A stretch of DNA of 64,000 nucleotides from Erwinia sp. E602. GTDB lineage: Bacteria; Pseudomonadota; Gammaproteobacteria; Enterobacterales; Enterobacteriaceae. A program made the translations under genes and the position numbers. The notes under the pieces were generated by a model that had not been told where the DNA came from, did no database searches, and worked only from the letters and a program-made list of their open reading frames with translations. The stretch is from NCBI RefSeq assembly GCF_018141005.1, contig NZ_CP046582.1:682001-746000 (forward strand), read 5' to 3'. Shown here piece by piece: positions 29,022 through 43,332 of this stretch; within the stretch, counting starts at the first letter, position 1, and every line of letters begins with the position of its first letter.

Positions 29022-30155
29022 ATGCGAACTCTGTTAACCGCGCTGCTGCTGAGCGGCGCTGCCACGATCGCCACGGCGGCAGTTGCTGCGCAGGCCACAG
29101 CACCCGGTGTGGATGCCTCTGCGGCTGCGAACGTGCCAGCGGCCAACGCGCCAGCCTCTGCTGCGGGCGAATCAGCGGGCAAAACACCAGCTCAGGCCGC
29201 TTCTGCCCCCGCTACCGATGCCGGCGCGGCGCGGGCTGACCGCGCCCCGGGCCAGGCCACCCGCGCCTTTACCGACGATCTGGGCCGCACGGTGCAGGTG
29301 CCGCTGCATCCGCTGCGCATCGTGTCGCTGCACGATCTGGATATCACCATTCCGCTGATTGAGCTGGGGGTGATGCCGGTGGCCAGCCACGGCCGCACCC
29401 GTCCGGACGGCAGCCATTTTTTGCGCTCCAGCGGATTACTGACCGGCGTTGATTTTGATAACTCGTCGATCCGCTTTATCGGCACCGCCGATATCGATAT
29501 TGAGGCGGTGGCGGCGGCCAGACCCGACCTGATCATCACCGAACCGGGGCGCAACACGCCGATCGAACAGCTGGAGAAGATCGCACCGACGGTCAGCATC
29601 GATCACCTGCTCGGCGGTGCGCCGCGCATCTACGCGAAGCTGGCGGAACTGACCGACACCCGGGCGCGGCTGGCGATCCTTGAACGCCGCTATCAGGAGC
29701 AGATTAAGCAGCTGCGCCACGTGGTGGACACGCAAAAGATGACCGTGTCGGTGATCCAGGCCAACAATGGCAAGATTACCGTGCACCACAGCTACCATTC
29801 GCTGGGGCGGGTGCTGCGCGACGCCGGCTTCCGCTTCCCGCCGCTGGTTGATGCGATCCCCGACGGCGGCCGCATCGACGTCAGCGCCGAGCAGCTGCCG
29901 GAGCTGGACGCCGACTACGTGTTTGACACCTGGCGGGCGGATACCGGCGGTAAGCCGGCGGACGAAATTGCCGATATGAACCGGGTGATGCCGGGCTTCT
30001 GCGAGTTCCTGCAGGCCTGCCGCCAGGGGCATTACGTCCTGCTGTCGCGCGATGAAGTGATTTCCAACTCGTTTGCCGCGCTGGGGCTGCTGGTGGCCCA
30101 GGTGCAGTCCCATCTGTCCGGCCGCACGCTGCCGGAAAGGCAGGGGGAACCATGA
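29022..30155 (+). CDS. Fe-siderophore binding protein with Ala/Pro-rich linker
   Basis: 377 residues from the ATG at 29022 (AAGGA upstream; the earlier in-frame ATG at 28992 lies in the permease gene). A signal peptide (to about residue 23) is followed by about 55 residues rich in Ala, Pro, Ser and Gly, then a FecB-like binding domain (RAFTDDLGRTVQVPLHPLRIVSLHD, VAAARPDLIITEPG, VFDTWRADTGG). The linker is unusual for a soluble periplasmic binding protein and might tether or extend it. A cysteine pair is seen near FCEFLQACRQ. It overlaps the RpiR gene by four bases. Confidence 0.8.
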   Translation: MRTLLTALLLSGAATIATAAVAAQATAPGVDASAAANVPAANAPASAAGESAGKTPAQAASAPATDAGAARADRAPGQATRAFTDDLGRTVQVPLHPLRIVSLHDLDITIPLIELGVMPVASHGRTRPDGSHFLRSSGLLTGVDFDNSSIRFIGTADIDIEAVAAARPDLIITEPGRNTPIEQLEKIAPTVSIDHLLGGAPRIYAKLAELTDTRARLAILERRYQEQIKQLRHVVDTQKMTVSVIQANNGKITVHHSYHSLGRVLRDAGFRFPPLVDAIPDGGRIDVSAEQLPELDADYVFDTWRADTGGKPADEIADMNRVMPGFCEFLQACRQGHYVLLSRDEVISNSFAALGLLVAQVQSHLSGRTLPERQGEP

Positions 30156-31048
30156 GCCTGCCGCACGCCTCACGCCGCCGCGTCGATCTGTTTGGCGAAC
30201 GCTTTCGCGCCCGCGCGCACCTGCTGACGCCGCGCCTGTACGCGGTGGTCAGCTACATCAATGAGCATCGTGAGGTGGTGCTGGAGCACACCGCGATGGA
30301 GATTGCGGCGGCCACCCGGTGTTCGGACGCCACGGTGATCCGCGCCATTCAGACGCTCGGCTTTGCCGGACTGCGTGACCTGAAACAGACCATCGAGCGC
30401 TGGCTGGGCCCGGCGGTCAACTCGGCGGAAAAGATGGATACCACCCTCGGCGCGCTGGCCAGCGACGTTAATGCCAGCATTGAGTTCGTAGTGGAAGGGC
30501 ACCTGCGCGCCTGCGAAGCGCTAAGCGAACCGCGCAACCGCGCGGCGATGGCACAGGCGGTGGCGCTGCTGGCCGAGGCGCGCCAGGTGGCGGTGTTTGG
30601 CATCGGGGCTTCCGGCGTCCTCGCGGACTATACGGCGCGGCTGTTTACCCGCATCGGCACGCCGGCCTTTTCACTTAACCGCACCGGTATTCTGCTGGCC
30701 GAGCAGCTGCTCTACCTGCAACGCGGTGACGTGCTGATCATGATGGGGCAGAAATCGGCGCACCGCGAAGGGCTGACCACCCTGGCCGAAGCGCGACGGC
30801 TGGGCATTCCGGCGATCCTGCTGACCAACGCCCCGGACTCGCGCTTCAGCCGCGAGGCGCACACGGTGATCGCCGTGCCGCGCGGCGGTGAAAACGGCAA
30901 GGTGCCGCTGCACGGCACGGTGCTGCTGTGCCTGGAGATGCTGGTGATGTCGGTGGCCTCCGGCGCACCGCAGAAAACCATGAAGTCGATGAAGCGCATC
31001 CAGGATCTGCACCGCTCAATTGGGAAATCGGCGGGGAAAAAGGGGTGA
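30152..31048 (+). CDS. RpiR/MurR-family regulator with SIS domain
   Basis: A 298-residue regulator: an N-terminal RpiR helix-turn-helix (residues about 18-90, TAMEIAAATRCSDATVIRAIQTLGF) and a SIS phosphosugar domain (about 130-260, VAVFGIGASGVLADYTARLF, IMMGQKSAHREG). Such proteins usually sense sugar phosphates, so its tight coupling (ATGA) to an iron-siderophore importer is unexpected. It could control this operon and the divergent receptor through the repeated GTAGT/ACTAC motifs at 25.8-26.0 kb. Confidence 0.82.
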   Translation: MSLPHASRRRVDLFGERFRARAHLLTPRLYAVVSYINEHREVVLEHTAMEIAAATRCSDATVIRAIQTLGFAGLRDLKQTIERWLGPAVNSAEKMDTTLGALASDVNASIEFVVEGHLRACEALSEPRNRAAMAQAVALLAEARQVAVFGIGASGVLADYTARLFTRIGTPAFSLNRTGILLAEQLLYLQRGDVLIMMGQKSAHREGLTTLAEARRLGIPAILLTNAPDSRFSREAHTVIAVPRGGENGKVPLHGTVLLCLEMLVMSVASGAPQKTMKSMKRIQDLHRSIGKSAGKKG

Positions 31049-31182
31049 GATGTCGCGCGGGTTGAATATACGCATGATTGGCATAACGGTCTGTTTCTCT
31101 GGCTGGCAAGCTGTTTGGTGCTCACGATGAGGGACAAGCTCATCTAATCATTCGGAATTTACTGGTCAAAGAAAAGGTAATC

Positions 31183-31680
31183 ATGGCCAGAGCCATCAGT
31201 CATTTGCCCACCTTTAAAGAGCTGATGCTGCCCGACCTCAGGGAACTTATCAGTGAAAATCGACGGGATCCCCTACCTGAAATCCAGGCCGCTAATAGTG
31301 TCGAAGGGGCCGTCGCATTACTCGAGTTTCACATGGGTTTTGTTGATCCCAGCATGCAGGTTGTCTCTAAAAGCACGCCAATTGGCAGCATGAATATTGC
31401 CAGAAGCAACCTGAGGCATATCGTGGAAAAGAGGCTGGATGCCCGTGAGCGTTCTGTTTTGCTCGCCCTGGATACGTTAGAGCATCCCTTTGATATTTGG
31501 AAAACTTTTTATGATGATGAGATGGCAAGGTACATGTTCATCGGAACATATCGGCAGAAACAGCAAATGCTCGCCGTCGTTGCTTCCTGGGAGGGGAAAG
31601 TGTTGTGGAATTTCCTTCACACCAGCGCTAAAAGCCTGAACAAGCACCGACAGGGGCAGCTGCTGTATAAAAGGCATTAA
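31183..31680 (+). CDS. orphan protein with PBECR2-like nuclease domain
   Basis: A 165-residue protein with no signal peptide or membrane segment. Residues about 60-165 carry the pattern of the phage-Barnase-EndoU-ColicinE5/D-RelE-like nuclease 2 domain: STPIGSMNIARSNLRHIVEKR, then LEHPFDIWKTFYDDE, YMFIGTYRQKQQMLAVV, VLWNFLHTS and LNKHRQGQLLYKR. The domain usually ends phage head-morphogenesis or polymorphic-toxin proteins; here it stands almost alone with an 85-residue N-terminal part I do not recognise. No immunity gene is evident. AAAGG precedes the ATG and a terminator follows at once. The family call rests on recalled pattern only. Confidence 0.55.
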   Translation: MARAISHLPTFKELMLPDLRELISENRRDPLPEIQAANSVEGAVALLEFHMGFVDPSMQVVSKSTPIGSMNIARSNLRHIVEKRLDARERSVLLALDTLEHPFDIWKTFYDDEMARYMFIGTYRQKQQMLAVVASWEGKVLWNFLHTSAKSLNKHRQGQLLYKRH

Positions 31681-31711
31681 AAAACCGCCCTGTTCAGAAG
31701 GCGGTTTTTTT
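31679..31711 (+). terminator. rho-independent terminator
   Basis: AAAACCGCC and GGCGGTTTT form a nine-pair stem followed by T residues, at the stop of the PBECR2-like gene. Confidence 0.85.
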
Positions 31712-32073
31712 AATGCCTGTATGTTTTACACCACCAGGCTATGGTGTTGAGGTTTCACCCTGACACAGAATTTAGGGATACTGTGGGGTTCTTCCACTAA
31801 CTATTGCATCCTAATGCAGTTAGCTTCTCGCTCACTCCTCATCCTACTGGAATGCGTTCCAGTGTCAATTCGTGGCTGGAGCAGATGGCAGAGCGTGCGG
31901 CTGGTGCAGCAGCATCTGGCTGAAGTGATATGTTCTACACAAAAAATATTAAAGTAATGCAGAGTTTTTCATTTTCATTCAATTGACCTTCAACAAGGAT
32001 CGTTCTCGAATTAAAGTTTTTATTGAATTAATTGTGTTAATTCTACAGCGCTGCGAGTTAAAAATAGTCGAAT
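31712..32073. other. 362-base intergenic region at left edge of AT-rich island
   Basis: I see no gene. It contains a perfect hairpin, ACTGGAATGCGTTCCAGT (31846-31863), and a weaker one around TTGCAT/ATGCAG (31804-31822). Composition turns AT-rich from about 31930, marking the island edge. No clear attachment site or insertion-sequence end was found. Confidence 0.5.
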
Positions 32074-32886
32074 TTATGACAATGGCACCTTCATAGCCAA
32101 TTGCTCATCAATTTTCAGCTCATCAATTAATAACTCTAGCTGTTGTCGATGATTTAGTTGTTGACGAATTTCAGCCCCATCGTTTCTGCGAGTTATCTTT
32201 TCTCCTTTAACTAAACCTACGATTGAATCTTTACGTGCGACTCTGATTATTGTTGCTGAATTGAAACGACTTGTGTCCCGACTTTTTTTATGATGATAGA
32301 TAAACTCACGGGAAGATGCATTTATATTTAGCAGGCGACAATCAACGTATGGCCTTCCAAGTGGCTTCCAGTTAACACACCAAAAATCATTTTTATAGTG
32401 CACTCGTGTTTTCCAAACGGGATGATCATTAGTATAATCGAGTAATGGCAACGGATTAGCATGCAGCATCGTTGGGTCGATAATAAATTTAGCATTCCCA
32501 AAGTTAACCATAATGGAGCCGTGGCCAGGAGTTATACTATTCTCATTTCCTGATGAGAGCATTGTCGATAAGACATAGTTGGCCGGAAATCTTAATTTAT
32601 CAAGTAGTGACTTCAAAGCTCCCTGACTAGCCCAGCAAGTTCCACCAATACCGTACTTAAGCCAGCTATTGAAGAAGTCTTCAGATAACAAACCGGGGAG
32701 TTCATTATTCGAGTTCTCTACCATCATTATTCTTTTCAGGATGTTATCAAAAGGAATTTTTTCACACCATGCCTGATAAAGCATGGTTAGTCCTTGTAAG
32801 TTGGGTTCAAGAGTACGAGGAAGACCAAGTCTTTCAAGTACCCTATCACAGCAATGTTCAGTTAGTGTTGATTTTACTGAGTCCAT
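32074..32886 (-). CDS. arylamine N-acetyltransferase-like acyltransferase (AT-rich island copy)
   Basis: A 270-residue member of the NAT fold. The catalytic triad is intact: Cys in GIGGTCWASQ, His in PGHGSIMV and Asp in FIIDPTML. NATs transfer an acyl group from CoA to an amine; some in antibiotic clusters close or release amides. It is the last gene of the AT-rich operon, 37 bases after the exporter, with an AAGGAAA site. It is clearly homologous to the gene at 37195-38010 (shared KPLGRPxVDCRL-type and GGTCW motifs) but very different in codon use. The acceptor could be the product of the upstream enzymes. Confidence 0.75.
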   Translation of the reverse strand: MDSVKSTLTEHCCDRVLERLGLPRTLEPNLQGLTMLYQAWCEKIPFDNILKRIMMVENSNNELPGLLSEDFFNSWLKYGIGGTCWASQGALKSLLDKLRFPANYVLSTMLSSGNENSITPGHGSIMVNFGNAKFIIDPTMLHANPLPLLDYTNDHPVWKTRVHYKNDFWCVNWKPLGRPYVDCRLLNINASSREFIYHHKKSRDTSRFNSATIIRVARKDSIVGLVKGEKITRRNDGAEIRQQLNHRQQLELLIDELKIDEQLAMKVPLS

Positions 32887-32923
32887 CTTTATTTCCTTTT
32901 AGTTGCATTCTGCTATTAACTGG

Positions 32924-34147
32924 TTATATTCTAACTGCCTTTCTATTTAACAATAATATATACGCTGATGTGCTTATTAATAATGATCCTGTGCATAAAA
33001 AAGAAGATTGAATGTTGAGTAAACTTGCTATTCTACCCCAGGTAATACTTCCTAGTGTTAAAGCTCCATAAAAAAACATGCTATAAATAGATAATGCCCG
33101 AGACCTTATCTCTTTATTAAAACAAGATTGTGCAATAGAGTTTGATGTTGAAACGATACCTGCCCATACAAAGCCGGCAATAAATACAGTGGGGATAATG
33201 AACATCAAAGGAGGTTTGAAGGATAGTACAATAAAGCACCAGCCTAAGGTTAATGAGAATAATGTAAGTATGTTATGTCTTAACAGTCTCGACCTGATTG
33301 AAGGCATAAAGAACGCTGAAATTACAGCGCCTGATCCGAAGTTACACATAAGGTATCCTAAAAAAACGCTTCCTCTAGACAAAGTGTTTGTGACATAAAT
33401 TGGTAAAAGAGATTGGAATGCAGAAATAGGGAAGAAAAGAAATATGATGATGATGGTTAGGTGACGGAATGATTTGTTTTTATAACATTCACTGATGCCT
33501 TGTGTCAATGAGTCAATTATTTGCATGTTGTATGCTTTAGTCTTATGGGTTTTTATTTTTTTCATATTGTAATATATGAATATAAGGGATAGTAAACAAG
33601 CTGCGTTAGCTAAGTAAAGGACCCCTGGTTGAGATAGTAATAATATTAATGTTCCGATAAGAGGTCCAATTATGGATGCTAAGTTGTAACTTAATCCGTT
33701 TAAAGTAGCGGAACTTTCAATTTCATCAGAGTTGACCAAAGTAGACATCGAGGCTTGCCATGATGACGTTTTTAGTGCAGTTCCGGATGCAATCAAAAAG
33801 GTAAAAATCAATATATAATTAACTTGTGGAGAGTAAAACATTGTTACTAACCCCAGTATTAAAACAAGAATGAAAATGGATATGTTTATCATATAAAGGT
33901 ATCGAAAATGGTTCATTCTGTCAGATATTACACCTCCAATCATTGAAAAAATAAAAATGGGGATTTGGGTCATTGTTTGTGACATGACTGAGATAGATGG
34001 ATCTTTAGTTTGAGAAGCAATTAGCCAACCGCTTGCGAATATTTGTATCCATGCACCTATATTTGCAATGAAATTTGCAATGCAAAGATTTCTGTAGTCA
34101 GGATATCTAAAAGGTGAAAATAATGGTACTTTCTTTTTAGTTATCAT
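32924..34147 (-). CDS. MFS exporter (DHA3/EntS-like)
   Basis: A 407-residue transporter with 12 predicted helices. NIGAWIQIFASGWLI near the N-terminus and GGVISDRMNHFRYLYMIN after helix 2 are typical of the MFS_3 group that includes the enterobactin exporter EntS. AAGGG precedes the ATG and it starts 11 bases after the ATP-grasp stop. In a small biosynthetic operon it most likely exports the product or gives self-resistance. Codon use is strongly AT-rich like its neighbours. Confidence 0.82.
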   Translation of the reverse strand: MITKKKVPLFSPFRYPDYRNLCIANFIANIGAWIQIFASGWLIASQTKDPSISVMSQTMTQIPIFIFSMIGGVISDRMNHFRYLYMINISIFILVLILGLVTMFYSPQVNYILIFTFLIASGTALKTSSWQASMSTLVNSDEIESSATLNGLSYNLASIIGPLIGTLILLLSQPGVLYLANAACLLSLIFIYYNMKKIKTHKTKAYNMQIIDSLTQGISECYKNKSFRHLTIIIIFLFFPISAFQSLLPIYVTNTLSRGSVFLGYLMCNFGSGAVISAFFMPSIRSRLLRHNILTLFSLTLGWCFIVLSFKPPLMFIIPTVFIAGFVWAGIVSTSNSIAQSCFNKEIRSRALSIYSMFFYGALTLGSITWGRIASLLNIQSSFLCTGSLLISTSAYILLLNRKAVRI

Positions 34148-34158
34148 TTTTTTACCCT

Positions 34159-35394
34159 TTATGATGGAATGACTGTTATTGCTTCAAATTTAAATGTGAA
34201 AAATTCATAAGCATCCATCACCCTTTCAACAGAATTGCATTTAACAAAGAAAATCGCAGCATAATCGATATTTGTAGTTGTTGCATTTATGACCTCTCCT
34301 TCTTTAACCTTCCAGGATTCTTCAATATCATCTTCTGTTTTAGGTGAGTTTGTACATTTAACCAATCCGTTCCTTTTAGGGTAAACGACAAAAAAAGCAG
34401 GCTTTGGAGTAATCGAGGTTATCAATTTACCTTTGTCAATTTTCATTTTGCATTGTAAAAGCAATTCCAAATCATACATGTTTACACCTTCCCAGCTATA
34501 ATATGCTGGAACTGTCATTAATCCCGGCGATCTTGCAGCGACCTCCAGAAATATCAGCTCATCATCAATAGAATGAAAAATTTCCATGTGAAAACAGCCA
34601 TGTTTAACTTGAAACTTCGCGATGCATTTTTTTCCAAAATTGCTAATTCGAGTATGCATTTCATCTTTACGATCTAACATAATGGAAGATAATGTTTCTC
34701 CATTCTGTAGTTCCATCATCGGGCAGCTATATCGGCTTACATTATGATAAATTATTTCATGGTTTTGTATGACAACATCGAATTGATATAACTTTCCATC
34801 AATGAACTCTTCTGCATGATACTTACACTTGTCATTAAATGTAATATCTTTGAACCTTAAGAAATCAACCTCCGACTTTATAACATGAATTCCACGACTC
34901 CCTACGGAGGATTTTGGTTTTATGATAAATACATTACCTAAATGACTTTTTAATTCATCAAAGATAATATTTTCAATGTTTATATCGAAATCTAAGTATT
35001 TAGGGGTTTTTATTTCAGTGTTTGAGAGTGTTTTTTTCATTTTTACTTTATCTAGAAATATACTGGTTTTCCCGTACATATGATCATAAATACCAAAGTG
35101 TAATCTTATTTTTTCTGCCACTCTGAGATTGCTTTCCTGGTTGCAAAAAATTTTAACATCATCTTTAAATGTTATAATGTTTTTTAAAATTGAAATGCAC
35201 TCTTCAAAGTTTAGTTTTTTTGTTTTTAGATCATGGTCTAATTTTTCACTTACATAAAAAACTTGGTCTCCAGTCATTGTTTTTATTATTTGAGTATCAC
35301 CCTCAGAAAGTAAAAAAACTTTTTCGAATTTATTCAATAGTTCTTCTGAGAAAAATTTTATGTTCTTAATGCCTAAAAATATAATTTTCATTAT
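34159..35394 (-). CDS. ATP-grasp carboxylate-amine ligase
   Basis: 411 residues from the ATG at 35394, which overlaps the flavoprotein stop (TAATG); an open frame extends upstream but lies inside the flavoprotein gene. ATP-grasp features are seen: DKVKMKKTL, the nucleotide-binding FIIKPKSSVGSRGIHVI, HAEEFIDGKLYQFDVVI and the metal-binding LEVAARSPG. Enzymes of this type join a carboxylate to an amine through an acyl phosphate, for example L-amino-acid ligases in dipeptide antibiotic pathways. The N-terminal 90 residues look like a Rossmann-type pre-ATP-grasp domain. The substrates cannot be read from the sequence. Confidence 0.82.
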   Translation of the reverse strand: MMKIIFLGIKNIKFFSEELLNKFEKVFLLSEGDTQIIKTMTGDQVFYVSEKLDHDLKTKKLNFEECISILKNIITFKDDVKIFCNQESNLRVAEKIRLHFGIYDHMYGKTSIFLDKVKMKKTLSNTEIKTPKYLDFDINIENIIFDELKSHLGNVFIIKPKSSVGSRGIHVIKSEVDFLRFKDITFNDKCKYHAEEFIDGKLYQFDVVIQNHEIIYHNVSRYSCPMMELQNGETLSSIMLDRKDEMHTRISNFGKKCIAKFQVKHGCFHMEIFHSIDDELIFLEVAARSPGLMTVPAYYSWEGVNMYDLELLLQCKMKIDKGKLITSITPKPAFFVVYPKRNGLVKCTNSPKTEDDIEESWKVKEGEVINATTTNIDYAAIFFVKCNSVERVMDAYEFFTFKFEAITVIPS

Positions 35395-36818
35395 TCTGTT
35401 TCTCCAAGTGATTGAATAAGATTTTCCGCCAAAGATTTTGCACATTCACGAAGTAATTCTATAGAGTTAGGAATGATTATTGAATTGTAAGTAGGGTAAC
35501 CAATCGAATAAAAACCTCTATAGGGCATTCCTTTTTTATTCAATACCCTCATGTTTTTGCAATCTACGTCCATACCTCTCATCTTGTTGAGTTTTAAATT
35601 CCCAGAGCTAATTTCATCTGTAAAAATTTCATTGAGACCATATGGCCTTAAACCAGATGCATTTATGACATAATCAAAATATAGTAATGAATCACATTTT
35701 TTTACCTTGAATTTATTTTTTTGATGTATGATAGAGTATGACCCCCACGTTAATTCAACTCTTCCAGTATTGACTATTTTAAGAAATCGTTTAGCACTTG
35801 GTTGTATTATAGTGTTTCTTAAATAATGAAATGTGTTGTAATGCTTTTCGTAAAACAGAATCTTTTCACAAGAGTTAAGACCTTGCCAGGATTTATTAAT
35901 GCAGGGAGTCAATTGTGCCATTATCCTTTGCCATTCAGGGTATTTTTCTGTTTCTAATTTATTTATATCATCAATCATAATTTCCAAAGAGTTGAATGGA
36001 GTTACTACGGGAGGTTTTTTTTTGATTTTTTTTGTGAGTGCTAGTTGTATGATTTTAGTTAGCTCTGCGAAAGGTAAAATACTAGTGTTATAACTATCCA
36101 CTGTCTTTGCTGAGTTTTCATGATACATGCTTTTAACCCCTGGCAATATTCCTCCTCTGGAAAGGAGAGTGTAGTTTCCTCTGACATTGAAATACTCAAG
36201 CATTATGCATGCATCTATTGCACTTTGCCCTGATCCTAATATACATATTTTTTTATTTTTACTGATTTTTGAGATTTCCTTCTCGTTAAATATAGTCATG
36301 AACTCATCGTTAATGAGATGAACTGGGTTGTTAACTTGTGCGCCAGTGGCTAGTATACAATAATCAAAATCTTTTCTCTGGCTATGTGTTATTATTTTGT
36401 ATTTTTCTGATATGATTATTTTTATCACCTCTTCATTATGTATTCTGATTTTTTTCTTGTTTTCTCTCATTATTTTAATGCAATCATTTAGTTTTTCTTC
36501 CAGATAATCTCCATAAATACGTCTAGGTACACCATGCTGGGAGTGTATACCCCTACCCTGCAGCCAGTTAATGAAATCATTTTTGTCTTCATAGTTAACA
36601 CTCATTGTTTCAGGTGCGGTATTAATAATTAAATTTCTAATTTTCGTGTCATATGCCATTCCCCTACCTAAGTACGATTTCTTTTCAAATATGTGAATTT
36701 CAATATTTCTAGTAATATTTTTTATTCTGATCTTTATAGCCTCAAGAACAAGAACTGTTGATGCACCGCAACCAATCAATGCTAAACTTTTAGTGCTTCT
36801 ATTTTTTTCGCCTTCCAT
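35391..36818 (-). CDS. FAD/NAD(P)-binding flavoprotein
   Basis: 475 residues from the ATG at 36818, preferred because GAGGAAT lies 8 bases before it; an ATG at 36848 has no ribosome site. The FAD motif is LALIGCGASTVLVLEAIK at the N-terminus, the second (NAD(P)) Rossmann motif is KICILGSGQSAIDACIML near residue 195, and CILATGAQ and VINASGLRPYG mark the usual third FAD contacts. It resembles the FAD-NAD(P)-binding (PF13454-like) group, some of which are N-hydroxylases or oxidases. It is the first gene of the AT-rich operon and is translationally coupled to the ATP-grasp gene. Confidence 0.78.
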   Translation of the reverse strand: MEGEKNRSTKSLALIGCGASTVLVLEAIKIRIKNITRNIEIHIFEKKSYLGRGMAYDTKIRNLIINTAPETMSVNYEDKNDFINWLQGRGIHSQHGVPRRIYGDYLEEKLNDCIKIMRENKKKIRIHNEEVIKIIISEKYKIITHSQRKDFDYCILATGAQVNNPVHLINDEFMTIFNEKEISKISKNKKICILGSGQSAIDACIMLEYFNVRGNYTLLSRGGILPGVKSMYHENSAKTVDSYNTSILPFAELTKIIQLALTKKIKKKPPVVTPFNSLEIMIDDINKLETEKYPEWQRIMAQLTPCINKSWQGLNSCEKILFYEKHYNTFHYLRNTIIQPSAKRFLKIVNTGRVELTWGSYSIIHQKNKFKVKKCDSLLYFDYVINASGLRPYGLNEIFTDEISSGNLKLNKMRGMDVDCKNMRVLNKKGMPYRGFYSIGYPTYNSIIIPNSIELLRECAKSLAENLIQSLGETE

Positions 36819-36906
36819 GATATCATTCCTCAGATCTTTAATTGTCATTTTTCATTAGTGTTAAACATTCCCTGTGAAAAACTTAAATTAGATTTAAATC
36901 ACAATT

Positions 36907-36922
36907 TGTGACGAATTTCACA
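36907..36922. promoter_or_regulatory. perfect CRP-type site
   Basis: TGTGA-CGAATT-TCACA has both CRP half-sites intact with the six-base spacer, in an AT-rich flank. Its centre is 97 bases upstream of the chosen flavoprotein start and about 280 bases from the NAT gene on its right, which is transcribed away from it. Carbon-status control of the island operon is likely. Confidence 0.7.
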
Positions 36923-37152
36923 ATTTAAAAATGATGTAAGAACTGGTGCTTTTGAGTGGTTAGTTAATTTACATAAAATCAATGTGATAAATTAGAAACA
37001 CATTTCTTGCACATGTAATTATGGATTTTTTACCATTAATTTTTTGATGGTTTTATCTGAAGGAAAGCCATAAAGAGCATTTTGTTATGTTGTTGAGTAT
37101 TTATGTCATGAGTCGTTTTTACAGATATTCCCAGTGGGTTTTTTGTCGTATA

Positions 37153-37192
37153 AAAATGACCAGCATCTTCATATCAGATGCTGGCCATTTTT
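37153..37192. terminator. terminator of second NAT-like gene
   Basis: GACCAGCATC and GATGCTGGCC form a nine- to ten-pair stem with A residues to the left and T residues to the right. It starts 2 bases past the NAT stop on the - strand. Confidence 0.85.
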
Positions 37193-37194
37193 GC

Positions 37195-38010
37195 TCACCC
37201 CGCCGGTACCTGCACCGCCAGCCGTTCGCTGATGCCGAACTCTTCGGTGAGCAGACGCTGCTGCTGGCTGTGGGATAGCGGGCGACGGGTTTCATGGCCG
37301 TCCGCGTGGCGCACGATATACTCGCCTTTAACAATGCCGCTAATCGAGTCGGCATGCAGCGCGCGGATCAGCGTTGAGGCGAAAAAGTGGCTGTAGTCGA
37401 GGTGGCGCAGGGTCTCACGCTGGTCCAGCACCTCCTCGGCGGAGGCGTTCAGGTGGTACAGGCGGCAGTCGACCGGCGGGCGGCCCAGCGGTCGCCAGGT
37501 GATGCACCAGCTGCCGTCGCTAAAATGTACGCCGCTTTGCCACAGCGGATGCTCCAGCGAGTGAGGCTTTAACGGCAGCGGCTCACCGAGCATCAGCGGC
37601 GGGTCAAAAATTAGCGGCTGGTCGTCCACGTCGGCAATCAGCGTGCCGTGATAATAGAGCGATCCTTCCTGCCCCGGCATCTGCACCGTCGACATCGCGT
37701 AGCGCAGGGTAAAGCCACAGTCGCTGAGCAGGGCGTGCAGCGCGACCTGGAACTCCCAGCAGGTGCCGCCCACGCCGTCGCTCAGCCAGTCGGTAAAAAA
37801 ACGCTCGGGAGCAATCAGCGGCGGCAGCTCGGCCGGCCGTGCGGCAAGCTGGATGCGCCGGCGCAGATTATCGTAGGGAATATGGCGGCTACAGACCTGA
37901 TACAGAGCGTCAAGACTCTGGCGATCTGCTGCCGGGTAATGGGTCATACCCAGTTTTTCCAGCACCTTTTCGCTCAGGGCCGTGGGCAGGACGGGGGGGC
38001 TGATGCGCAT
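37195..38010 (-). CDS. arylamine N-acetyltransferase-like acyltransferase (host-composition copy)
   Basis: A 271-residue NAT-fold protein with triad Cys in GVGGTCWEF, His in YYHGTLIAD and Asp in IFDPPLM. It belongs to the same divergent NAT branch as the AT-rich copy at 32074 (GGTCW in place of the GGYCFE of NhoA). It is monocistronic with its own terminator and GC-rich codon use like the chromosome. Substrate unknown. Confidence 0.75.
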   Translation of the reverse strand: MRISPPVLPTALSEKVLEKLGMTHYPAADRQSLDALYQVCSRHIPYDNLRRRIQLAARPAELPPLIAPERFFTDWLSDGVGGTCWEFQVALHALLSDCGFTLRYAMSTVQMPGQEGSLYYHGTLIADVDDQPLIFDPPLMLGEPLPLKPHSLEHPLWQSGVHFSDGSWCITWRPLGRPPVDCRLYHLNASAEEVLDQRETLRHLDYSHFFASTLIRALHADSISGIVKGEYIVRHADGHETRRPLSHSQQQRLLTEEFGISERLAVQVPAG

Positions 38011-38171
38011 TCTGCATGCTCCTTTGGGCTAATGTTCAGGGGTTGCTGTTTTTATGTACGGTTCCATTAATTAACCCGTTCGCATCTGGGGGACAATCGT
38101 AAACGCCTGAATTTCTGCCGGCTCTGCGGCCGCGTCGCTCTCCGGTGAGCAGCACCGGAGAGCATCAATGC

Positions 38172-38205
38172 AAAAAAGACAGCCGCAGGATGCGGCTGTC
38201 TTTTT
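38172..38205. terminator. bidirectional terminator
   Basis: AAAAGACAGCCGC and GCGGCTGTCTTTTT form a long stem. On the - strand it lies upstream of the bglA stop side and can end leftover + transcripts as well; the glucosidase operon ends about 45 bases to its right. Confidence 0.8.
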
Positions 38206-38249
38206 AGTTAACCGGCGGTAAAACGTACCGGTGCAGATGGGGGAATGGC

Positions 38250-41683
<3,434 letters not shown>

Positions 41684-41686
41684 GCT

Positions 41687-43015
41687 TCAGCCCTCCACGG
41701 CTTTCAGGTCGCCATCTTCTTTCGCGGGTGCAGGCTGTTCCTGCTCCAGCAGCTGGCGTTCGTACATTTTAAAGAACGGGTAGTAAATCAGCGTTGAGAC
41801 GGCGATCAGCACGCCGACCAGAATCACCGCGCGGAAGTCCCAGCCGGTTGACCAGGCGGCACCGATCGGGCCGGGGGTGGTCCACGGCGCTAACGACACC
41901 ACGTGATTGACCATGTTGGTGCGGGTGGCGATCCACGCAATGGTGGCGTTAACCAGCGGCGCGGTGATAAACGGGATAAACAGCAGCGGGTTCATGACGA
42001 TCGGAGAACCAAAGATAATCGGCTCGTTGATGTTGAACATGCTCGGCACCAGCCCCAGCTTGCCAATCGAACGCAGGTGCGCCGAACGGCTGCGCAGGTA
42101 GAGGAACACCAGCCCCATGGTGGCCCCCGAGCCGCCGACCACGATAAAGAACTGCCAGAACGGCTCGATAAACACCTGGGTAATCGGCGCGCCGGCGTTG
42201 AGTTCCTGCTGGTTAATGCCGAGGTTGGTCAGCCAGAACGCCTGCAGAATACCGCCGACGATCACCGCACCGTGAATACCGGCGAACCACAGCAGATGGC
42301 ACAGCAGTACGGCGATCAGCACGGCGGGCAGCGAGTCAGAGGCGGAGATGATCGGCTTGAAGATCGCCATAATCGCCTGCGGCAGCAGCATGCCGAACTG
42401 ATCCTGCACCCACAGGCTGAGCGGGAACAGGGTAATGAAGATCGCCATGATCGGGATCAGCAGGTCAAACGACTGGCGGATTTTCGGCGGCACCTGTTCG
42501 GGCAGCTTAAAGCCAATATTGTGCTTCTGCAGGAAGTGCATCAGCTCGGTGGCATACAGGCTGACGATAATCGCGGTAAAGATCCCTTCGCCGCCCAGCG
42601 ATCCCACCGGCAGCGCGCCGTTGCTCTGCGGCGCGGCGACCAGCAGGAATGACATCAGCGACAGGCAGGCGGCCATAAAGCCGTTCATCCTGTAGCTGAT
42701 GGCAAGGTTATAGGCGATGGCGGCGCAGATGTAGACCGCCATAATGCCCATGGTCATGTTGTAGGGCATCATGATCTGCGTGGAGTGGCGTTCCACCATA
42801 CCCAGCCACCACCGGGCGAACGCCCACTGGCTGTCGGCGCCAAACGGCGGGTGCGCAAACAGCAGCATAAAGGATCCGACGATCAGGAACGGCATCGAGG
42901 AGATAAAGCCGTCCTTGATTGCCACCACGTGGCGCTGGCCTGATAACCGCGCCGCGATCGGACTGATGCGGTTTTCGATCACCCCAAACAGGGTCTCGCT
43001 GAAGCGGCTCATCAC
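41687..43015 (-). CDS. PTS EIIC, cellobiose family permease
   Basis: A 442-residue membrane component with about ten helices; GDGFISSMPFLIVGSFMLLFAHPPF-like opening, WFAGIHGAVIVGGIL and FNINEPIIFGSPIVMNPLL are diagnostic of the ChbC/LacE EIIC family (the NEPIIFG segment lines the sugar site). It overlaps the EIIB stop by four bases. Confidence 0.92.
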   Translation of the reverse strand: MMSRFSETLFGVIENRISPIAARLSGQRHVVAIKDGFISSMPFLIVGSFMLLFAHPPFGADSQWAFARWWLGMVERHSTQIMMPYNMTMGIMAVYICAAIAYNLAISYRMNGFMAACLSLMSFLLVAAPQSNGALPVGSLGGEGIFTAIIVSLYATELMHFLQKHNIGFKLPEQVPPKIRQSFDLLIPIMAIFITLFPLSLWVQDQFGMLLPQAIMAIFKPIISASDSLPAVLIAVLLCHLLWFAGIHGAVIVGGILQAFWLTNLGINQQELNAGAPITQVFIEPFWQFFIVVGGSGATMGLVFLYLRSRSAHLRSIGKLGLVPSMFNINEPIIFGSPIVMNPLLFIPFITAPLVNATIAWIATRTNMVNHVVSLAPWTTPGPIGAAWSTGWDFRAVILVGVLIAVSTLIYYPFFKMYERQLLEQEQPAPAKEDGDLKAVEG

Positions 43016-43332
43016 GCGGCCCTGCCGTTGTTGATCATCGCCAGCGCTTCGGTGAGGATCTTGTCGCCGTTCATCATGCCGTAATCCATGGTGTTGATCA
43101 CCGCGATCGGCTTGTTCAGCTCATCCGCCAGCGGCTTAAAGTCCGCCAGCTTGTACTTGATCTGCGGGCCCAGCAGGCAGCAGTCGTAATGGCCGATCTG
43201 CTCGTTGAATTCGTCGAGTCCTACCGCGTTGATCTCCACGTCGATGTTCTTCTCTTTTGCGGCCTTTTCCATCCGCTGGACCACCATGCTGGTGGACATA
43301 CCTGCAGCACAACAGAGTAAAATTTTATTCAT
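43012..43332 (-). CDS. PTS EIIB, lactose/cellobiose family
   Basis: A 106-residue EIIB. The phosphocysteine loop is KILLCCAAGMSTSMVVQRM at the N-terminus. It is the first gene of the five-gene beta-glucoside operon, whose promoter region holds an AscG-type operator and a CRP-like site. Confidence 0.92.
   Translation of the reverse strand: MNKILLCCAAGMSTSMVVQRMEKAAKEKNIDVEINAVGLDEFNEQIGHYDCCLLGPQIKYKLADFKPLADELNKPIAVINTMDYGMMNGDKILTEALAMINNGRAA

Follow-up and report, generated by a model that had tools for sequence, protein, structure and literature searches.

Introduction

Arylamine N-acetyltransferases (NATs) are classic xenobiotic enzymes that acylate aromatic amines and hydrazines, and PMC11213898 also tabulates NATs borne on gene clusters with proposed acyltransferase roles, among them BezG of the benzastatin pathway, for which O-acetylation of p-hydroxyaminobenzoic acid is proposed. 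The same paper connects a plasmid NAT of Pantoea agglomerans with Pnp2A, which belongs to an antibiotic cluster of six genes. PNP-2, the six-gene antibacterial cluster of P. agglomerans TX10, was published as 5,784 bp with 41.89% GC and, according to PMC7744662, was missed by antiSMASH in that strain.

Here we describe a four-gene operon of Erwinia sp. E602, situated in a stretch of 64,000 nucleotides (contig NZ_CP046582.1, positions 682,001 to 746,000; hereafter the window). It encodes a flavoprotein, an ATP-grasp ligase, a putative exporter of the major facilitator superfamily (MFS) and a NAT-fold acyltransferase (NAT1). With moderate confidence, we read it as a compact specialised-metabolite operon in which the flavoprotein would N-oxygenate, the ATP-grasp enzyme ligate, the MFS protein export and the NAT acylate, following a logic like that of PNP-2, the closest described system that we found. 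A first-pass annotation of the window had known of no described pathway with exactly this set of genes; the open-access papers that we searched indeed held no description of the four-gene operon, but the part list of PNP-2 is nearly the same.

Organization and composition of the operon

The four minus-strand genes form a real operon. All of them are open, the flavoprotein and ATP-grasp genes meet in a TAATG junction, and the other two intergenic gaps measure 11 and 37 bases, exactly as first annotated (Table 1). For the ATP-grasp gene, the ATG within the TAATG (35391) is the likely start, because the two closest relatives of its protein begin at its Met19, and the true start of the flavoprotein may be Met11 (36818).

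The description of the locus as an AT-rich block in a GC-rich chromosome was borne out as well. The GC content of the 4.8-kb operon block was 0.333 versus 0.594 for the window, with values of 0.392 for NAT1, 0.335 for the MFS gene, 0.306 for the ATP-grasp gene and 0.320 for the flavoprotein gene. Sliding windows of the same length had a median of 0.60 and a minimum of 0.328, and the 1-kb GC profile fell below 0.38 solely at 32001-37000.

Upstream of the operon lies a second NAT gene (NAT2), and the spacer between them contains a hairpin at 37160-37184 followed by a run of T on the minus strand (the scan listed the hairpin on the plus strand only, and the tail was read by eye). Given this position, NAT2 is probably a unit of its own and the hairpin the probable end of its transcript. 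The terminator scan returned 12 sites versus 5.6 expected, and the promoter scan showed no excess over shuffles (22 sites versus 21.4 expected).

Table 1. Coordinates of the operon and of the features around it (window positions)
Feature	Position	Strand	Remarks
Flavoprotein gene	35391..36848	-	485 aa; open reading frame intact
ATP-grasp ligase gene	34159..35391	-	410 aa from Met19; longest open reading frame reaches 35445
MFS exporter gene (putative)	32924..34147	-	407 aa; open reading frame intact
NAT1 gene (NAT-fold acyltransferase)	32074..32886	-	270 aa; open reading frame intact
Operon/NAT2 spacer	36849..37194	-	346 bases; probable promoter region of the operon
NAT2 gene	37195..38010	-	GC 0.637; NAT family; 346 bases upstream of the operon
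Lineage-specific insertion	31049..38249		7.2 kb, between the rpiR-type regulator gene and the GH1 gene
PBECR2-family nuclease-like open reading frame	31183..31680	+	PF18810, E=1.4e-11; inside the same insertion
rpiR-type regulator gene	30152-31048		Flank of the insertion
GH1 gene	38250-39734		Flank of the insertion

Recurrence in other genomes

Plasmid pCN101 of Pantoea stewartii PSCN1 carries all four genes in unchanged order (WP_347449436-WP_049791813); PMC11462666 describes the strain as a cause of sugarcane wilt. The identities were 41% for the flavoprotein, 49% for the ATP-grasp enzyme, 49% for the MFS protein and 48% for the NAT. The plasmid operon is situated after relaxase genes, and we found no study of it. 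A metagenome-assembled genome from Lac Pavin (locus L047) carries a variant in the order PF13454 protein (22%), an extra membrane protein with no Pfam match, ATP-grasp (46%), MFS (47%) and NAT (41%), which keeps the order of the last three genes. The first-pass suggestion of a recurring unit thus held. Four genes that recur in order at 41-49% amino-acid identity are together by more than chance, and we rejected a chance cluster on the gene order in P. stewartii.

Decayed and partial versions were also found. A 16-kb locus of Erwinia rhapontici (L048) retains a C-terminal fragment of the ATP-grasp gene and open MFS (50%) and NAT (45%) genes, with no flavoprotein match at 1e-4. The relic is present in this E. 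rhapontici genome (G837), yet the insertion site of the window is empty there. In genome G301, a piece of the MFS C-terminus near the contig start is followed by an open NAT gene; by eye, the first bases of this contig resemble the end of an IS30-type transposase. Genome G170 has a distant three-gene version consisting of a flavoprotein (23%), an EamA-like exporter and an ATP-grasp enzyme (29%). Finally, the NAT stands alone in seven genomes (4/10 of genus g219 and 3/61 of the genus of G097), where neither the flavoprotein nor the ATP-grasp or MFS protein had a match at 1e-5 in the surroundings of any of the seven genes.

We searched order, phylum, class and family samples of genomes, which overlap. 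The ATP-grasp protein had matches at 1e-3 in 26 of 247 genomes of the order sample, none but its own above 31% identity, and at 1e-12 in 5 of 398 genomes of the phylum sample; its three-member profile reached 6 of 369 genomes of the class sample at 1e-25 (own genome included in the latter two counts). In the family sample of 246 genomes, the flavoprotein was found in 11 (best other 28%) and the NAT in five, both counts with the own genome; three of the other NATs were clear (41-49%) and one weak (24%). Among 72,556 plasmid records there were 69 ATP-grasp matches (5 covering at least 80%), six flavoprotein matches and one NAT match. pCN101 was in each set and was the only record with at least 40% identity among the matches listed (for ATP-grasp, 15 of 69). 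A scan of genome contigs with two short peptide patterns, which is not a census, led to two loci. Rare co-occurrence elsewhere had been named at first pass as a sign against a pathway: the set does recur, but it is rare in these samples, and the NAT occurs also on its own.

A lineage-specific insertion

The first-pass annotation had viewed the four genes as a compact acquired block. In the Erwinia genomes G837, G821 and G838, the rpiR-type and GH1 genes are separated by 319, 148 and 230 bases, respectively, with none of the island's genes between them. Acquisition is thereby upheld, but what was acquired extends beyond the operon and includes NAT2, which had been missed. In three further genomes (G819, G836 and G831) GH1 is present, rpiR is missing from the stretch analysed, and the island genes are unmatched there at 1e-10. 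Counting the own genome, GH1 homologues (E<=1e-150, some of them paralogues) occur in 35 of the 37 genomes of the genus and NATs of the operon clade in two, the second being E. rhapontici. With NATs of this clade in so few genomes, we rejected the idea that NAT2 belongs to an old core of the genus.

No repeats of the kind that mark a mobile element were recognised at the flanks. The PBECR2 open reading frame had no PHROG match at 1e-3 and was unmatched at 1e-10 in the stretches analysed from the six relatives. Adjoining the insertion, window positions 38250-43332 hold two GH1 genes with phosphotransferase-system-like components (by eye), probably for beta-glucoside use.

Enzyme families of the ligase, the flavoprotein and the exporter

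None of the four genes scored above a curated NCBIfam cut-off for a housekeeping family; a housekeeping enzyme among them was the other finding that had been named as speaking against a pathway.

The ATP-grasp protein matched PF13535 with 29 bits against a cut-off of 27, and its three-row profile found the L-amino acid ligase 4wd3 at 3.7e-20 and the Ala-anticapsin ligase BacD at about 8e-6. We therefore regard it as probably L-amino acid ligase-like. ATP-grasp matches in 2 of 61 genomes of the genus of G097 (L059-L061) were rejected as members of the operon family on adjoining radical S-adenosylmethionine (radical-SAM) genes, KamA-like by eye, and the match at L005 was rejected likewise.

Several other ATP-grasp clusters came to light. 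Loci L073 (6632-12009), L074 (5394-14158), L075 (1849-10554) and L005 represent another cluster type, with a radical-SAM gene (KamA-like by eye), an ATP-grasp gene and a membrane exporter; those of L074 and L075 also have a 650-aa flavoprotein (PF13454; Pfam was run on L074 alone). Plasmids of Pantoea sp. CCBC3-3-1 (L078, 2203-8251) and Burkholderia glumae (L043, 2978-9257) have in common genes annotated as iron-containing redox enzyme, aminotransferase, FAD oxidoreductase, TauD and ATP-grasp, which is another oxygenase paired with an ATP-grasp ligase of the operon's kind. On an Apilactobacillus kunkeei plasmid (L082, 5938-12276), the ATP-grasp match and a gene annotated ddl lie next to genes annotated thyA and DNPH1, an arrangement with the look of a nucleoside-type cluster.

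The flavoprotein matched PF13454 (FAD-NAD(P)-binding) with E=4.4e-25, while PF13434 stayed below its Pfam cut-off. It has the two dinucleotide-binding motifs of class B flavin N-hydroxylases, an FAD motif GCGAST at residue 26 and an NADPH-type motif GSGQSAID at residue 205. Against the PDB, the single sequence had no match at E<=0.1; a nine-row profile found the flavin-containing monooxygenase (FMO) 7d4k at 4.5e-13, ornithine N5-monooxygenases at about 1e-5, and 8cp2, an FAD protein that is an aspartate N-hydroxylase, at 0.0012. PNP-2 has an oxygenase of the AurF family, which is a known family of N-oxygenases; with a member of the FMO/N-hydroxylase superfamily in the corresponding place of the operon, N-oxygenation is suggested for it as well, and we propose the flavoprotein as a candidate N-oxygenase. 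In two other genomes of the family (L056, 7417-9951, and L058, 8188-10827), a related flavoprotein adjoins a gene that is methyltransferase-like by eye.

The MFS protein matched PF05977 (MFS_3) with E=5.7e-70 and, each time below the curated cut-off, TIGR00900 (3e-34) and the EntS model NF007792 (6e-23). It is accordingly described as a putative EntS-like exporter. The EntS match bears on a siderophore or metal-chelator pathway, in which an N-hydroxylated amino acid would be acylated by the NAT to a hydroxamate and exported by the MFS protein close to an iron or haem uptake operon. An N-hydroxylase with an acyltransferase follows the logic of hydroxamates, and the neighbouring genes at 23-30 kb resemble, by eye, a system for the uptake of a metal or of haem. 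These uptake-like neighbours, however, remain in G837, G821 and G838, which are without the insertion. In hydroxamate pathways, acylation is the work of GNAT enzymes and assembly that of IucA/IucC or non-ribosomal peptide synthetases (NRPS), and the seven proteins scanned around the operon included no IucA/IucC or NRPS synthetase and no GNAT acyltransferase. We consider a chelator improbable.

The two NATs

NAT1 has the NAT fold and the Cys84-His122-Asp137 triad of the arylamine N-acetyltransferase superfamily, all three residues being kept in 17 of 17 aligned sequences. Its Pfam score is weak; the sole match of the single sequence in the PDB was unrelated (E 0.12), and the top sequence match of a six-row profile was the amide synthase GdmF (2.1e-10). 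NAT2 is 41% identical to NAT1, and these two were the sole matches when NAT1 was searched against its own genome (E<=1e-3). In trees, the branch of the window NATs was separate from that of the canonical NATs compared (four in the larger tree), a branch in which the PNP-2 NAT also falls (both branches 100/100). The grouping of NAT1 with NAT2 was weak in two trees (81/77, and 94/96 in the larger tree), and they were not joined in the smaller tree. Of 200 bootstrap trees, 64% had a branch that set the solo NATs to one side, which does not settle the direction of gain or loss.

A NAT next to an N-oxygenase makes chemical sense, because NATs acylate aromatic amines and hydrazines and BezG is proposed to O-acetylate p-hydroxyaminobenzoic acid. 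What the acylation would serve can be read in two ways. That the NAT survives in both relics and is also found on its own speaks rather for self-protection, although solo NATs could predate the operon. Alternatively, in the same kind of operon, the NAT would take part in biosynthesis, forming an amide or acylating the product as RifF and GdmF are proposed to do, with no self-protection; the GdmF match and the tabulated cluster NATs with proposed acyltransferase roles, BezG included (PMC11213898), both favour this, and we hold it to be a real, if lesser, possibility.

The NAT is also what would suggest a detoxification or catabolic island, whose four proteins would alter an aromatic amine or hydroxylamine from outside and clear it from the cell. 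Such a role would suit the classic xenobiotic function of the family (PMC11213898) and the NATs that stand alone in genomes of two other genera. The conserved ligase-exporter-oxygenase set nevertheless looks like biosynthesis. An ATP-grasp enzyme of the L-amino acid ligase type is, moreover, no usual detoxification enzyme, and we judge this explanation very improbable.

Proposed pathway

Returning to the specialised-metabolite operon with PNP-2-like logic, we infer its substrates, step order, product and activity as follows. The PF13454 monooxygenase, binding FAD and NADPH, would oxygenate an amino-acid nitrogen to a hydroxylamine, oxime or nitro group, and so take the place of the diiron N-oxygenase of PNP-2 and its reductase. 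The ATP-grasp enzyme would form an amide between the oxygenated product and a second amino acid, and the MFS protein would export the small peptide-like product. The NAT would acylate the N-oxygenated or an amino group, either as the last tailoring step or, as we slightly favour, so that the product is kept inactive inside the producer. The product is probably an antibiotic-like small amino-acid-based molecule. The first-pass reading, an acquired pathway for an oxidised and acylated amide with a toxin, signal or siderophore-like role, is supported in part, for its compactness, acquisition and recurrence.

Several observations weigh against this proposal. The nearest solved relatives of the flavoprotein are general FMOs, which leaves S- or C-oxygenation or a dehydrogenase role open, and its predicted model, built from a two-sequence alignment, had a predicted local distance difference test score (pLDDT) of only 36, too low to serve for a whole-length fold comparison with SidA. 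The complete gene order was found in one other record besides the Lac Pavin variant. In the other five genomes of the class sample with an ATP-grasp profile match, one stretch each showed no flavoprotein, MFS or NAT partner at E<=1e-4 (one of the five, G1223, has two ATP-grasp matches, both with internal stops, of which one was examined for partners). The solo NATs may be ancestral, with the NAT recruited later, a point that the tree does not settle. Lastly, the proteins are remote from those of PNP-2: the ATP-grasp enzymes share 24% identity (E 3.7e-8) and the MFS proteins 25% over 119 residues (E 0.011), while for the PNP-2 NAT, BLAST listed no match to NAT1, a 21% match to NAT2 (122 residues) and a 26% match to the NAT of P. 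stewartii (124 residues). The parts are not orthologous, and the resemblance is therefore an analogy of logic only.

A bolder version goes further: PNP-2 and the operon would be unrelated clusters of related bacteria that independently reached one design of N-oxygenase, ATP-grasp amino-acid ligase, MFS exporter and NAT-fold acetyltransferase, the NAT a portable self-protection gene that outlasts the decay of its pathway, the product a new N-oxygenated dipeptide-type antibacterial, and the solo NATs of the clade marks of resistant bystanders. Taken as a whole, we find this rather unlikely.

If the proposed pathway is correct, it comprises four genes in less than 5 kb, a size at which a laboratory host could express the whole of it, and it is one that standard mining software may overlook, as PMC7744662 reports for PNP-2. 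It would also provide a search rule, namely to look for NAT genes that adjoin genes for an ATP-grasp ligase, an exporter and an N-oxygenase of any kind. NATs, mostly known from drug metabolism, would gain a possible role in self-protection for peptide-type antibiotics, for which the relics and the NATs that stand alone would be natural test cases.

Comparison with known systems

We compared the operon with a six-gene cluster on P. agglomerans plasmid pAR8b_A (L076), which encodes a NAT, a serine hydrolase, an MFS protein, AurF, a Fer2 reductase and an ATP-grasp enzyme in 5784 bases with 41.87% GC, and which we take to be PNP-2 from its length and GC content versus the published figures. Both are compact low-GC operons of Pantoea and other Enterobacterales that unite an ATP-grasp enzyme, a NAT and an MFS protein of the same superfamilies with an oxygenase. 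PNP-2 differs in its gene order and in having its own AurF-type diiron N-oxygenase, ferredoxin-type (Fer2) reductase and serine hydrolase, where the window operon has a PF13454 flavoprotein. The operon is thus not filed as PNP-2.

Its single enzymes compare with known ones in a similar way. The ligase belongs to the ATP-grasp family in common with 4wd3 and BacD, but is distant from both. With flavin N-monooxygenases such as ornithine N5-monooxygenase and the aspartate N-hydroxylase 8cp2, the flavoprotein shares the FAD and NADPH motifs and profile similarity; it differs in its family, PF13454, and in that the matches are confined to the first 256 profile positions. The NAT, finally, shares its fold and Cys-His-Asp triad with the biosynthetic-cluster NATs RifF, GdmF and BezG; it differs in its branch, which is separate from the four canonical NATs compared, in its weak Pfam score and in a neighbourhood in which no polyketide synthase was seen.

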